The notes under the pieces: generated by a model
Database searches by the model: none
Told to the model about the DNA's origin: nothing
What the model saw: only the letters and a program-made list of their open reading frames with translations
Virus record (IMG/VR): IMGVR_UViG_3300032516_000004
Location: 113,942 to 177,941 of that record
Source: a virus
Reading direction: 5' to 3' (one strand)
Length of the DNA stretch: 64,000 bases
Shown: positions 40,706 to 46,425 of the stretch, piece after piece
Layout: each line of letters begins with the position of its first letter
Position numbering within the stretch: the first letter of the stretch is position 1
Position numbers and translations under genes: made by a program

Positions 40706-43700
40706 ATGTCCGTAATATTTACGTCTGGTGAACCACAAATGTGGTTAAAAACTTGCGGGTGTCAAAATCCAGCAATTTATTGGAGCAGTGATTTTAATGC
40801 CAGAATTTGCGGTAATTGTGGTATGGTAATTATGGAAAAGCAGGGCGAAGAAGTCAAAATTGATTTTGTGCACTTGGTTGTTCATACCCACCTAAGTTTT
40901 CTGAAGGCAACATGCAAAATTGAGGATTTAATTAATAAAGCCAAAGAATATGGTATGTCAGCTTTGGCCAAGACAGAATTAGGAAATTTATGTGGCGCAC
41001 CGTCTTTTGTAAAAGAATGTAAAGAAGCTGGTATTAAACCTATTTTAGGTACCACATTTAATACAAAAATTGGTGAAATATTTCATCCTATTACTATTAT
41101 AGCCACTAATCATGCGGGGTATAAGAATTTAGTGCGTCTTAATACGTTAGCATGGCAAATTAGGTTTGGTAAGGAACACGGTCCGTCAATACAAATAAAT
41201 GATATTATTAGTTCAGATGGCTTAATAGCCATTATTGGAGTAGAGCAATCTGGCCTGGGATTCGAATCACTTGTTACCATGTTGGCGGGTAAGATACAGC
41301 CGACATTAGCAGCTACCTGGTACAACCAACAAGATAATGATAATTTAGCAATATTAAGAGTGGTGGCTGATAAGCTACATTTACCAGTTGTTGCCACTAA
41401 TAATGTACGATATGTAAATCAGTCGGATCATGACGCATATAAAATAGCACTTAAAATAGGACACTACGATTATTTACTTCAAGATCCTGAATATTATTTT
41501 AAATCACCTGCTGAGATGGCCCAACTACCATTTGATGAAGAGTGGTATCGAAATACAATTCGCATAGCTGATTCGGTACAAGATTATCAGATCATCAACA
41601 AGGAATTTATTGTACCAACCTTTAAGGATCAGAACGGTGAGTGGGGAATAGAAGAGTCATTTGGAAAATTACAAATAGAAACCTGGAACGGGTTGGCTGC
41701 AAAAGGCTTAATTGATAAGCCAGAGTACATTAAGAGACTCGAGTATGAGCTTGACGTAATTAAGAGAAAGAAATTTGCTAGTTACTTTCTAATCATTGCT
41801 GAGATTGTTGATTATATTAAATCCAGAGGTTGGCTATCTCCTTTTGGCAGGGGATCTTCTTGCGGAAGTATGATTTGTTATTGTCTTGATATTATAGCCA
41901 TAGACCCTATTAAGTGGAGCATACCATTTGAACGATTTATTAATGAAGGTCGTATTGATTTACCAGACATTGATACCGATATCACACAAGAAGGTCGCGG
42001 CGACGTATTAAAACATATTGCTGAAGTACATGGACATGATCGTGTGGCACAGATCGCTACTTTTCAGACCATGGGTCTTAAGGCATCGATTGATAATGTA
42101 GGTAGAGCATTAGATGTTGCGTTTGTACAAAATAGAGAGCTACGCAATAAAATTCCTGAAGAGGTCGAAGAAATTGATGATCTATCAGACGATGTGAAGA
42201 AGGAACTCAATACAGTTAAGGGGTGGGCTGACAACGCTAAGTCTCTGTCTGGTATAACGAAGAATTTTGGTGTACACGCTGCTGGTATCGCAATCGCCAA
42301 TAATCCAATAGGTGATTTGGTGCCACTATTGCCTGAGATTGATGGTGTTCAGGGTGTTCAATATGATATGAAAGACCTAGAAATACTTGGTCTATTAAAA
42401 CTTGATATGTTAGGTTTGCGAAATCTTGATGTTATTCAAAATACCTTAGCCATAATTAAACAGGTTCATAATGTAGACATTGATGTTCATAATCTTCCGT
42501 TAGATGATAATCAAACATATGATATGATATCTACTGGAGATTATGTTTCAGTATTCCAGCTTGATTCGCCGGGTTACAGGAAATTAGCTCGTCAACTTAA
42601 ACCAGATAAATACGAACACATCATGGCCTTGAATGCCCTGTTCCGTCCAGGGCCACTTGGTGGTGGTATGACAGATGAATATGTTGAGAGAAGACATGGA
42701 CGTAAACCTTCTGAGAGCATGCATCCATGGTTAGATGAAGATTTATCAACAACTTATCAGCTTATTGTATTCCAGGAGCAACTGTTGGCTTTAGCAAAGA
42801 AAATTGCTGGTTTTAATGGTGTTGAAGCAGATAAATTTAGACATGCCGTAGGTAAAAAGTCACAGGTAGAATTTGATAGGGCCATGTCTAAATTTAAAGA
42901 CGGCGCTTTGAATAGAGAAGGTCTAATCCCTCCACCTGGATGTGGTAAATCTCTTGAGGCTTGGGTGGATGATCTTATAAAGAAAATATCCGGTCATGCA
43001 CGTTACAGTTGGAACCGAGGGCACTGCCTGGATGGAAGCTCGTTAGTGTTAACATGTGGTCGTGGGTTGGTTCCAATTAAATATATAAATATCGGAGAAG
43101 AGGTTTGGTCAATTAGAGAGAAGACTGGAGATATTTTTAGAAATAGAGTTATGAATGTTATTAACAATGGTAGGCGCGATACTGTGCGTGTTAGATCCAG
43201 CGATGGTAGAGAGCTTGTGACCACATCTAATCATAGGTATTTTACCTCCAAACAACAGTATAAACACGCGTCTGAGCTGAACTATACTGATAGCCTGAAG
43301 ATGCTTGATAAGGGGATTTTTAGAAGACATTTCAACATCTTTGTGACATCTATTACAAACCGTAACAAGGTTCCATTCGTCGTCAGCCTTTACAATTTCA
43401 TATGGTATAATGTGGTGAAGGCTAAGTCTTTTTTTGGTTCCACAAAAGACGCACATACACCAATCTCGTTCAAGAAGTTTATATCTAAGAGATCTGCTAA
43501 TTTTCCTAGTTTTTCGTATTTTAATACCAGATCGTCCATCTCTGAAGAACTTATAAATACTTCTGGGATTAATAAAGATCTTTCTTTCAGCCAGTCTCCT
43601 AGAGATTGCAATTTGGCTTTTGTACCCCATACTTCTTATTTCAAGGATTGCCTTTCTTACTTTTGGCGTAATTGCATAAACGCGGTTACCACTCAGACCA

Positions 43701-45325
43701 CACTCTTTGATAAATCTGGAGAGGGCAGCGGGGCTAGCTTTAAATGGAAGTTCCTCAAGTATATTCTTGCTGCCAAATCCCTGTGCGTGCAGCTTCCTAA
43801 TCAACTTTTCATGTTTATAATAGGGGTTCCGTTTTCTATTGCATATGATGCAGAGGCTATTGTTTTTGGCCGTTCTGTGAACCGTAATCTTTTTACGGCA
43901 GTCACCGCATCTGATACTCTTTGTATTCTTGGACCTGTTAAGACATCTGGGGCAATGATAGATAGGGATATTATTAGGAGTGACGAAGATATTGGAACAT
44001 TTAACACAGACTACTTCAATCTCTTTCATATAAAACCTCTGGAACAAAAGGATATTACCGACGTTACTTTTAATTCTATCACACCAGAATCAAATCGTGA
44101 AGTCTGGGATCTTACCATGGAACAAGACCCAAACTTTATAGCTAATGGTTTTGTAGTTCATAATTCAGCGGGTTACGGAATGATTACGTATGTTACTGCA
44201 TATCTTGAGACCCACTATCCGGCTGAGTATTATACTACTCTTTTAGATTCAACTGATAAAGCTGACAAGATCACTACATTAATGCGTGGTATTATGCATA
44301 AAAATTATGCGGTAGTTCCACCCGATGTAAATGAGTCTGGTGTAGGGTATGCCACTAACAATAATGTTATTTACATGGGGCTTGGTTCGGTAAGAAATGT
44401 TGGCAATTCAGCGGGTGAGATTGTTGAAGAACGTGATCGAAATGGTAAGTTTGGGTCATTTATTGAGTTTTGTCAACGTTTGTCGTCTGTTAATAAAACA
44501 GCAAAAATAAATTTGATAAAAGCCGGTGCATTTAAGTGGGATAAATCACTATGTGATCGAGATAAAGCCGATAATATTGACGTTATTAATAAGGCCGTTA
44601 GACGTAAGAACAAAAAATTTGATGGCACTAAAGTAGCGCCCATTGAGATAGCCACTGAATGTTACATTACGGGTATCGATTTCACCGATATTCAACGGCA
44701 GCAGAATGAACGAGAAGTACTAAATTCATTTATTACTGGTCATCCAGCGGCAGTTTATCAACGTCTTGCCCCGTATTTGGAAAGAGCAGACTCTCATGTT
44801 GTGTGCCCGTCCATGATTAAGGACTGTCAAGTTGGAGAAACGGTATTGTTGGTTGGCATGGTTGACACAATAAATAAGAAATTCATTACTAAAGAAGGAA
44901 GGAATCAGGGTAATCCTTATTTAGTGGTACATATTAGTGATGAACGCGATTCAACAATGACTAATATATGGTATCCAATGTGTAATGATATGGAAAAAAT
45001 ATTAGTACCTGGACAAGTTGGTATGTTTGAGTGTATAACTAGGGCAGATAAATTTAGAGAAGGTAGAATATCGTTGTCAGTTAAACATGCTGTTATGTTA
45101 ACTCATGGTTTACCAATACAAGGAATTTTTGTAAATAACGGTCATGCTCCAGAGGCCGTGTTAGCTAAAATAGGTGGCATGCTAAATCAGATTATCGATG
45201 TTGGTAATAAAAAATATGCCTCTATACGAGGTAGAATAACTGTAAATCCAGATGTTCTTGAAAATGCAGCTCACGAATTTGATGGTGTTAAATTTTTAAT
45301 CTGTATGGAGGCGTCAGATGGCTAA
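40706..45325 (+). CDS. dnaE: DNA polymerase III alpha subunit (DnaE type) containing an intein
   Basis: The precursor is 1539 residues; without the intein (774-1153) it is 1159, the normal DnaE length. Residues ~12-42 add a Cys ribbon (CGCQ, then CGNCG). The PHP domain (VHLVVHTHLSFL, ALAKTELGNL) has lost several metal ligands. Polymerase motifs: PFGRGSSCGSM, LPDIDTDITQ with the two catalytic Asp (~residues 420 and 422), and LKLDMLGLRNL with the third. A C-terminal OB-like region follows. The intein splits the conserved SH/SAxY element (NRGH, then SAGYGMITY). It is the replicative polymerase; proofreading would come from the DnaQ-type protein at 46678. Confidence 0.95.
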   Translation: MSVIFTSGEPQMWLKTCGCQNPAIYWSSDFNARICGNCGMVIMEKQGEEVKIDFVHLVVHTHLSFLKATCKIEDLINKAKEYGMSALAKTELGNLCGAPSFVKECKEAGIKPILGTTFNTKIGEIFHPITIIATNHAGYKNLVRLNTLAWQIRFGKEHGPSIQINDIISSDGLIAIIGVEQSGLGFESLVTMLAGKIQPTLAATWYNQQDNDNLAILRVVADKLHLPVVATNNVRYVNQSDHDAYKIALKIGHYDYLLQDPEYYFKSPAEMAQLPFDEEWYRNTIRIADSVQDYQIINKEFIVPTFKDQNGEWGIEESFGKLQIETWNGLAAKGLIDKPEYIKRLEYELDVIKRKKFASYFLIIAEIVDYIKSRGWLSPFGRGSSCGSMICYCLDIIAIDPIKWSIPFERFINEGRIDLPDIDTDITQEGRGDVLKHIAEVHGHDRVAQIATFQTMGLKASIDNVGRALDVAFVQNRELRNKIPEEVEEIDDLSDDVKKELNTVKGWADNAKSLSGITKNFGVHAAGIAIANNPIGDLVPLLPEIDGVQGVQYDMKDLEILGLLKLDMLGLRNLDVIQNTLAIIKQVHNVDIDVHNLPLDDNQTYDMISTGDYVSVFQLDSPGYRKLARQLKPDKYEHIMALNALFRPGPLGGGMTDEYVERRHGRKPSESMHPWLDEDLSTTYQLIVFQEQLLALAKKIAGFNGVEADKFRHAVGKKSQVEFDRAMSKFKDGALNREGLIPPPGCGKSLEAWVDDLIKKISGHARYSWNRGHCLDGSSLVLTCGRGLVPIKYINIGEEVWSIREKTGDIFRNRVMNVINNGRRDTVRVRSSDGRELVTTSNHRYFTSKQQYKHASELNYTDSLKMLDKGIFRRHFNIFVTSITNRNKVPFVVSLYNFIWYNVVKAKSFFGSTKDAHTPISFKKFISKRSANFPSFSYFNTRSSISEELINTSGINKDLSFSQSPRDCNLAFVPHTSYFKDCLSYFWRNCINAVTTQTTLFDKSGEGSGASFKWKFLKYILAAKSLCVQLPNQLFMFIIGVPFSIAYDAEAIVFGRSVNRNLFTAVTASDTLCILGPVKTSGAMIDRDIIRSDEDIGTFNTDYFNLFHIKPLEQKDITDVTFNSITPESNREVWDLTMEQDPNFIANGFVVHNSAGYGMITYVTAYLETHYPAEYYTTLLDSTDKADKITTLMRGIMHKNYAVVPPDVNESGVGYATNNNVIYMGLGSVRNVGNSAGEIVEERDRNGKFGSFIEFCQRLSSVNKTAKINLIKAGAFKWDKSLCDRDKADNIDVINKAVRRKNKKFDGTKVAPIEIATECYITGIDFTDIQRQQNEREVLNSFITGHPAAVYQRLAPYLERADSHVVCPSMIKDCQVGETVLLVGMVDTINKKFITKEGRNQGNPYLVVHISDERDSTMTNIWYPMCNDMEKILVPGQVGMFECITRADKFREGRISLSVKHAVMLTHGLPIQGIFVNNGHAPEAVLAKIGGMLNQIIDVGNKKYASIRGRITVNPDVLENAAHEFDGVKFLICMEASDG
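43025..44164 (+). other. intein in DnaE (residues 774-1153, 380 aa) with antisense endonuclease gene
   Basis: Splicing blocks are complete. Cys1 begins CLDGSSLVLTCGRG. The N-terminal Hint block continues with IKYINIGEEVWS, block B is TTSNHRYF, block F is EVWDLTMEQDPNFIANG, and block G is FVVHN with Ser+1 of SAGYG. It sits in the highly conserved DnaE element before the polymerase thumb/finger region. Between about 43320 and 44030 the sense protein has no DOD or HNH motif and reads as filler; that stretch is the complement of an HNH gene. Removal leaves a normal-length polymerase. Confidence 0.92.
43109..44029 (-). CDS. HNH homing endonuclease encoded antisense inside the DnaE intein
   Basis: The product is 306 residues from ATG 44029 (MKEIEVVCVKCSNIF), with CAGAGG 6 bases upstream. 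An N-terminal series of zinc ribbons (CVKCSN, CPRCLN, CGDCRKK, CIICNRK) is followed by HTH-like helices (SPAALSRFIKECGLS, YKSQIAISRRLAERK). The HNH core has CVFCG, LSLHHIIPYEIV and EWNLVTVCNRCHKDVE at about 43343-43460. The last ~60 residues overlap the intein splicing blocks on the other strand. The layout is like the free-standing HNH gene at 13728. Its presence explains how this intein could home without an in-frame endonuclease. Confidence 0.88.
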   Translation of the reverse strand: MKEIEVVCVKCSNIFVTPNNIPIYHCPRCLNRSKNTKSIRCGDCRKKITVHRTAKNNSLCIICNRKRNPYYKHEKLIRKLHAQGFGSKNILEELPFKASPAALSRFIKECGLSGNRVYAITPKVRKAILEIRSMGYKSQIAISRRLAERKIFINPRSIYKFFRDGRSGIKIRKTRKISRSLRYKLLERDWCMCVFCGTKKRLSLHHIIPYEIVKADDEWNLVTVCNRCHKDVEMSSKNPLIKHLQAISIVQLRRVFILLFGGKIPMIRCGHKLSTIAGSNTHSIAPTIVNNIHNSISKNISSLLSN

Positions 45326-45624: not shown

Positions 45625-46425
45625 ATGATTAAATGTAATAGATGTGGTATTATGAAATTACGACGCGAACTTGTAAATAGCAAACAGCGATCAAAGGGTT
45701 ATAGACCCTTATGTAAACAATGTTATAATAAACATAGACGATTAGTTTGGCGACGATATGCTGGTTTGGTTAGGAAAGCTATTTTGAAGTATTTACAAAA
45801 ACACCCGTGTGTTGATTGTGGTGAGACTAATCCAATTGCCTTAGAATTTCATCATTTGAAGAATAAAAAATATAATATAGCTCCATTAATTGGTAAAGGA
45901 TGTAAACTTTCACGTATTATGAGTGAAATTGCTAAGTGTGATGTAGTTTGTGCTAACTGTCACAAGAAAAGAACTGCCAAACAACAAAATTGGTATAATA
46001 TGAAAACTAAGAAGTGCTGTAATTGTAAAGAAATTAAATCAGTAAAGCTATTTAATAAGCGTGGTACGGGTTATAATTCTTGGTGTAAAAAATGTTGTAA
46101 TAAATATCATAAAAAATATTATAGTAATACACGAGCAATACACTATGAGATAACTACAAGACGTAGAATAGTGTTAAGACAAAAGTTATTAGAATATCTT
46201 AAAGAACACCCGTGTGTTGATTGTGGTGAGAGTAACCCAATAACTTTAGAGTTTCATCATCTGAAGAATAAAAAATATAATATAGCTAATATTATTAAAT
46301 ATGTGTCCTCTTGGGACACTGTTTTAAAGGAAATTGCTAAGTGTGATATAGTTTGTTCTAATTGCCATAAGAAAAGAACCGCTAAACAACAAAATTGGTA
46401 CAGTAAATCCAGAAAGGTTGGATAA
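45625..46425 (+). CDS. HNH endonuclease made of two tandem copies
   Basis: The product is 266 residues. Each ~133-residue half has a zinc ribbon (MIKCNRCGIMKL; KKCCNCKEIKSV), a basic helix, and an HNH core: HPCVDCGETNPIALEFHH...VVCANCHKKRTAKQQNWY and HPCVDCGESNPITLEFHH...IVCSNCHKKRTAKQQNWY. The HNH-encoding DNA repeats at 405-bp spacing with few differences, so the duplication is fairly recent. The second half starts with an in-frame ATG and could be expressed alone. AT-rich, probably a homing gene. Confidence 0.85.
   Translation: MIKCNRCGIMKLRRELVNSKQRSKGYRPLCKQCYNKHRRLVWRRYAGLVRKAILKYLQKHPCVDCGETNPIALEFHHLKNKKYNIAPLIGKGCKLSRIMSEIAKCDVVCANCHKKRTAKQQNWYNMKTKKCCNCKEIKSVKLFNKRGTGYNSWCKKCCNKYHKKYYSNTRAIHYEITTRRRIVLRQKLLEYLKEHPCVDCGESNPITLEFHHLKNKKYNIANIIKYVSSWDTVLKEIAKCDIVCSNCHKKRTAKQQNWYSKSRKVG

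Follow-up and report, generated by a model that had tools for sequence, protein, structure and literature searches.

A phage DnaE intein with an HNH homing endonuclease gene on its opposite strand

We analyzed a 64,000-nucleotide stretch of viral DNA (the window; positions 113,942 to 177,941 of the 177,941-base virus record IMGVR_UViG_3300032516_000004) in which the gene for a DnaE-type DNA polymerase III alpha subunit contains an intein that holds, on the opposite strand, a complete gene for an HNH homing endonuclease. The motifs of both elements are intact, the same arrangement recurs in a second phage contig (L098), and both reading frames bear the mark of constraint. We have good confidence in the reading that a mini-intein was invaded by a stand-alone antisense HNH homing gene and that both strands have been selected to stay open. 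This is a real, maintained variant of the partnership between inteins and homing endonucleases, and one that has apparently not been described. The features of the region are the following:

40706-45325, plus strand: phage DnaE-type DNA polymerase III alpha subunit, the host gene (Pfam PHP, DNA_pol3_alpha, finger and HHH_6; alignment to the solved E. coli DnaE).
43025-44164, plus strand: intein of 380 aa, insertion site YSWNRGH/SAGYG, the slash marking the junction (PF14890; N- and C-terminal intein models; uninterrupted site in DnaE relatives).
43025-43297, plus strand: N-terminal splicing segment, residues 1-91, with Cys1 and TxxH at 67-70 (splicing blocks; conserved with the L098 intein; sense constraint).
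43109-44029, minus strand: gene for an HNH homing endonuclease, its 306 codons and stop aligned codon by codon with the intein (PF01844; phrog_144; 45% identical antisense ORF in L098).
43295-44026, both strands: intein residues 91-334, where constraint at the protein level acts on the antisense frame, and the sense frame is mainly maintained without stops (codon comparison, simulations).
43337-43453, minus strand: HNH nuclease core, CxxC..HHIIPY..NLVTVCNRCH (Pfam match, residues 199-237 in 312-aa numbering).
43535-43810, minus strand: helical region, probably helix-turn-helix DNA-binding modules (low-confidence model secondary structure).
43841-44008, minus strand: two putative zinc ribbons with four CxxC pairs, invariant in both phages (alignment; weak Zn_ribbon_6 match).
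44030-44164, plus strand: C-terminal splicing segment, residues 336-380, ending VVHN/S (conserved with the L098 intein; antisense not conserved).
44036-44041, minus strand: Shine-Dalgarno-like CAGAGG, 6 nt ahead of the HNH ATG (sequence).
44073-44101, minus strand: speculative sigma-70-like promoter candidate, TTCACG-17-TAGAAT, its -10 element preceded by TG (promoter scan).

The host gene is one unbroken frame of 1539 codons, with its N-extein at 40706-43024 and its C-extein at 44165-45325. A preliminary description of this DNA had reported a 380-residue intein in DnaE with all splicing blocks, no endonuclease in its sense frame, and a complete minus-strand HNH gene inside it (306 residues, CAGAGG ribosome site, HNH core), and all three observations hold up. 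Every catalytic residue of the intein is present (Cys1, T67xxH70, His379-Asn380 at the C-terminal VVHN, and Ser at position +1), and the Pfam model Intein_splicing (PF14890) matches the 380 residues with E=5.6e-17. Among the NCBIfam models, the C-terminal TIGR01443 scores above its cut-off and the N-terminal TIGR01445 just under it, and a profile of the window and L098 inteins recovers solved mini-inteins such as those of DnaB and DnaX. The window intein is predicted to be capable of protein splicing. Its ends are fixed by nearly 80 viral and phage DnaE relatives that read through the insertion site uninterrupted (..NRAH/AASY..). A family profile search of the sense frame of the intein gave no match to endonuclease families at E<=0.1; where a canonical intein has its endonuclease in frame, the nuclease here is antisense. 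An intron was also considered and rejected: no intron family was detected up to E=1 over 42500-44700, and neither a group I or II intron nor any other RNA family accounts for the insert.

Two further observations concern DnaE and the inteins of this virus. The DnaE N-terminus (window 40706-40860) has an extra segment of ~50 residues ahead of the PHP domain that is cysteine-rich and zinc-ribbon-like. A second intein in the same virus (G000:C1:57946-58974) is a conventional-looking in-frame insert, with LAGLIDADG and a portal-like host protein recognized by eye only.

On the minus strand, the HNH gene begins with an ATG at 44029 and ends with a stop at 43109-43111, giving a product of 306 aa; in the list of open reading frames it appears as a 312-aa version with an upstream TTG start. 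The protein matches PF01844 (E=6.6e-8), phrog_144 (E=9.8e-11) and many HNH PHROGs, and the Pfam match is above cut-off for both the window and the L098 genes. Its N-terminal 177 residues are orphan. AlphaFold models were built from two-sequence alignments, with few relatives, and are of low confidence and too poor for fold comparison; their secondary structure suggests that the helical region probably consists of helix-turn-helix DNA-binding modules. The promoter-like site lies 44-72 bases upstream of the HNH start, and such sites are barely above chance in this region. A free-standing HNH gene is located directly downstream of dnaE (window 45625-46425) and encodes a duplicated HPCVDCGE...ANCHKKRTAKQQ unit, with matches to phrog_2255 in two stretches.

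The codons of the intein and of the HNH gene are in exact register, so every TTA, CTA or TCA codon of the HNH gene would put a stop into the sense frame. None of these occurs among its 24 leucine and 27 serine codons, against 17.3 expected with the HNH protein fixed and the codon usage of the window genes (P=3.5e-10). In the window's other genes, TTA or CTA accounts for 44% of leucine codons and TCA for 25% of serine codons, and the longest stretch free of all three in 33 other gene segments is 138 codons, compared with 307 at the HNH gene. The remaining two frames opposite the HNH gene contain 13 and 41 stops. In L098 the HNH ORF likewise has 0 of these codons vs. 6.7 expected (P=5.6e-4), a count that is not fully independent of the first because the two phages share ancestry. 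The excess of stop-codon avoidance in the sense frame, which the preliminary description had proposed to look for, is therefore found in both phages.

These counts bear on the suggestion that chance alone accounts for the open sense frame and that either the intein or the endonuclease is a relic. Antisense frames in codon register are indeed the ones that stay open most easily, and some inteins of high-GC cellular genomes contain long but empty antisense ORFs. Against this, P is 3.5e-10 at 38% GC, in a phage that commonly uses TTA, CTA and TCA. Moreover, the avoidance is seen again in L098, both the intein and the nuclease match their families, and each frame is conserved in its own segments. 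Chance openness of the sense frame is rejected by the stop avoidance in both phages, and together with the constraint data this already largely refutes the suggestion, which we regard as scarcely credible.

The second phage is represented by a 98-kb viral contig (L098; IMGVR_UViG_3300023174_000101) that was located with a DNA pattern, deduced from peptide sequence, spanning the point where dnaE and the intein meet. It encodes a DnaE of 1529 aa with an intein of 371 aa at the same dnaE site (YNWNKGH/CLKEG ... VVHN/SIAYS) and, antisense and in register, an HNH ORF of 303 codons whose product is 45% identical to the window HNH protein. All eight zinc-ribbon cysteines are kept, as are the HNH residues bar one Asn that is changed to Asp, and there is no Shine-Dalgarno sequence before the first ATG of the L098 gene. 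The C-terminal splicing segments (residues 335-380) are 57% identical. The N-exteins of the two DnaE proteins are only about 46% identical, which indicates that the arrangement is old; its presence in a distantly related second phage therefore points to a maintained design and not to an accident.

The element is known from these two genomes, both of which are metagenomic. No confirmed relatives came from scanning viral contigs with one protein at a time (the HNH protein, the intein or a portion of the C-extein), nor from a genome contig scan with the HNH pair. The viral contig scan with both DnaEs recovered L098 and two distant intein-free DnaEs, and no intein-free allele of the window/L098 dnaE clade. 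At the same dnaE site, a third phage contig (IMGVR_UViG_3300009149_006183) contains a short, nuclease-free intein (FNRAH/CISGK...VISKN/S), in which a penultimate Lys replaces the usual His.

In a rival reading, the HNH gene is a stand-alone homing gene that has some other target and merely shelters in the loop of the intein, which would then move by a different route or be immobile. This would be in keeping with the orphan N-terminal 177 residues, with the other HNH gene just downstream of dnaE (45625-46425), and with the existence of inteins that hold out-of-frame genes of a different nuclease family (below). However, the intein and the HNH gene have remained associated at one dnaE site in two widely diverged phages, and the pair would be kept together most simply if the homing gene cut the empty site. 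We thus consider a foreign target unlikely and favor an endonuclease that homes with the intein.

We then asked which strand is constrained where by aligning the window and L098 genes by codon and by simulations that either fixed the HNH proteins and redrew synonymous codons or fixed the sense proteins. Over HNH residues 1-245, conservation is seen at the first two positions of the HNH codons but not at the third. Residues 246-306 are encoded opposite the N-terminal splicing segment; there it is the sense frame that is conserved, and its conservation exceeds the HNH-only expectation by a z of about 5.7-6.1. From the other side, antisense identity over intein residues 91-334 is ~12 standard deviations above the sense-only expectation, and there is no conservation of the antisense in the C-terminal splicing segment, which the HNH gene does not reach (z=-1.3). 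The antisense excess over intein residues 29-90 (z=2.8) is hardly above that over residues 1-28, outside the gene (z=2.5), and the last ~60 HNH residues therefore look like passive read-through into the intein. The codon constraint is thus split between a mini-intein of ~135 residues, located at the two ends, and a backwards endonuclease gene that forms the middle. On the basis of these comparisons, the main requirement on the sense translation of the middle is that it stay open.

The same data address the idea that the sense middle is a functional but unrecognized third domain, such as a stabilizing insert, that is itself selected. Sense identity over HNH residues 1-245 is slightly above expectation (z=1.9, p=0.03), which leaves room for weak constraint on the sense sequence of the linker, and in some inteins a long linker is required where the endonuclease is located (PMC6801210). 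Yet over HNH residues 41-245 the sense similarity matches the HNH-only expectation (z=0.1-1.1; BLOSUM z=0.1), and the sense frame of the middle matches no family. A selected third domain is accordingly very unlikely, and a linker that is open but otherwise mostly free to vary remains our preferred reading of the middle.

We propose a composite selfish element built on a dnaE mini-intein (residues 1 to ~90 and ~336-380), into the loop of which a stand-alone HNH homing gene would have been inserted backwards and in codon register. From the plus strand, the whole insert would be translated within DnaE, where it would act as a long linker, and protein splicing would then excise the 380-residue intein from the DnaE precursor. 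From the minus strand, separate transcription and translation would produce an endonuclease with zinc-ribbon, helix-turn-helix-like and HNH parts. This enzyme may cleave intein-free dnaE at or near NRGH/SAGYG, and repair of the cut dnaE would copy the intein and the endonuclease gene together. Selection would preserve the endonuclease sequence while purging TTA, CTA and TCA codons, allowing read-through of DnaE. The two reading frames, the intact motifs, the recurrence and the pattern of constraint on both frames are established from sequence, and from these we infer splicing, minus-strand expression, cleavage and homing. The preliminary description had already envisaged that a free-standing HNH gene, the antisense translation of which stayed open, had invaded a mini-intein, and the recurrence, the split constraint and the stop avoidance in both phages fit this.

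The entry of endonucleases into inteins is an old question and is usually pictured as an in-frame domain fusion. An antisense gene cannot arise by fusion, and the element therefore points directly to a stand-alone homing gene having been captured. It is also a rare case in which two coding frames overlap completely in antisense, over ~300 codons, and in which constraint is measurable for each strand by itself.

Several known systems share part of this organization; the nearest are fractured genes with split inteins and, closest among published reports, the ShiLan insertion. Antisense homing endonuclease genes occur in some group I introns, and there too the gene is on the strand opposite the host gene; such a carrier, however, splices as RNA and needs no open frame, whereas the window carrier must stay translatable. 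Fractured genes, in which split inteins have a nuclease gene between their halves, were reportedly described by Dassa and colleagues in 2009 (cited in PMC10448857). They likewise have a free-standing homing gene inside an intein, but both the intein and the host gene are broken in two, whereas the window dnaE is a single ORF (40706-45325). Hidden out-of-frame HNH insertions on the same strand, with no splicing domain, have been reported in methylases of the phages ShiLan and Pacc40, and the insert is thought to remain in the methylase (Arsenault et al., 2025; PMC11855218). The likeness is that an HNH gene is hidden outside a host frame that stays open; the window element differs in that its gene is on the opposite strand and within a complete splicing domain. 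Among endonuclease-containing inteins, of which the cyanophage CL131 dCTP deaminase intein is an example (PMC6293099), the homing endonuclease is also located in the loop that joins the two splicing segments, and according to a structural study the endonucleases of inteins are domains nested within them, at a position that is conserved (PMC6801210). In those inteins the nuclease, LAGLIDADG or HNH, is an in-frame domain of the intein, whereas in the window it has a gene of its own on the other strand. In agreement with the earlier statement that antisense homing genes are not known in inteins, a search of the open-access literature brought up no account of an intein with an antisense endonuclease.

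Endonuclease genes in other frames were identified in further inteins. A helicase intein of IMGVR_UViG_3300009149_006183 (CITGD...MLVHN/CQH) includes, on the same strand but out of frame, a LAGLIDADG_2 gene of ~314 codons (E=3e-24), and the intein frame has 0 stops vs. 12.1 expected. The isolated Xanthomonas phage FoX3 (MT161383.1) has the same-strand out-of-frame arrangement in its putative DNA helicase gp40 (L231 1908-4274). Here an unannotated LAGLIDADG_2 gene (L231 2297-3094; E=1e-21) is detected in the shifted frame only, and the intein frame has 0 stops vs. 4.4 expected. Out-of-frame homing genes in inteins are therefore not unique to the window dnaE. The search of inteins for antisense HNH frames that had been suggested at the outset was successful for the L098 phage dnaE and not for cellular inteins: pattern matching in 114 of them, a sample biased to one C-terminal motif, revealed no HNH motif in any antisense ORF, although some of these ORFs were long, high-GC genomes having the longest. 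Among cellular inteins the arrangement is therefore not common.

We lean slightly toward the general view that inteins can carry a homing endonuclease as a separate, overlapping, out-of-frame gene on either strand. The dnaE inteins with antisense HNH genes and the helicase inteins with out-of-frame LAGLIDADG genes on the same strand (G002, FoX3) would then be independent cases of one general route, the colonization of mini-inteins by stand-alone homing genes, with in-frame fusion or fractured genes as alternative outcomes. The presence of a related out-of-frame arrangement in an isolated phage, FoX3, makes this general idea testable. In Pectobacterium phage Ymer and Escherichia phage AN_ECEAS, the helicase is encoded in two ORFs with intein halves and a related LAGLIDADG gene overlaps both, which is a fractured-gene version of the nested arrangement.
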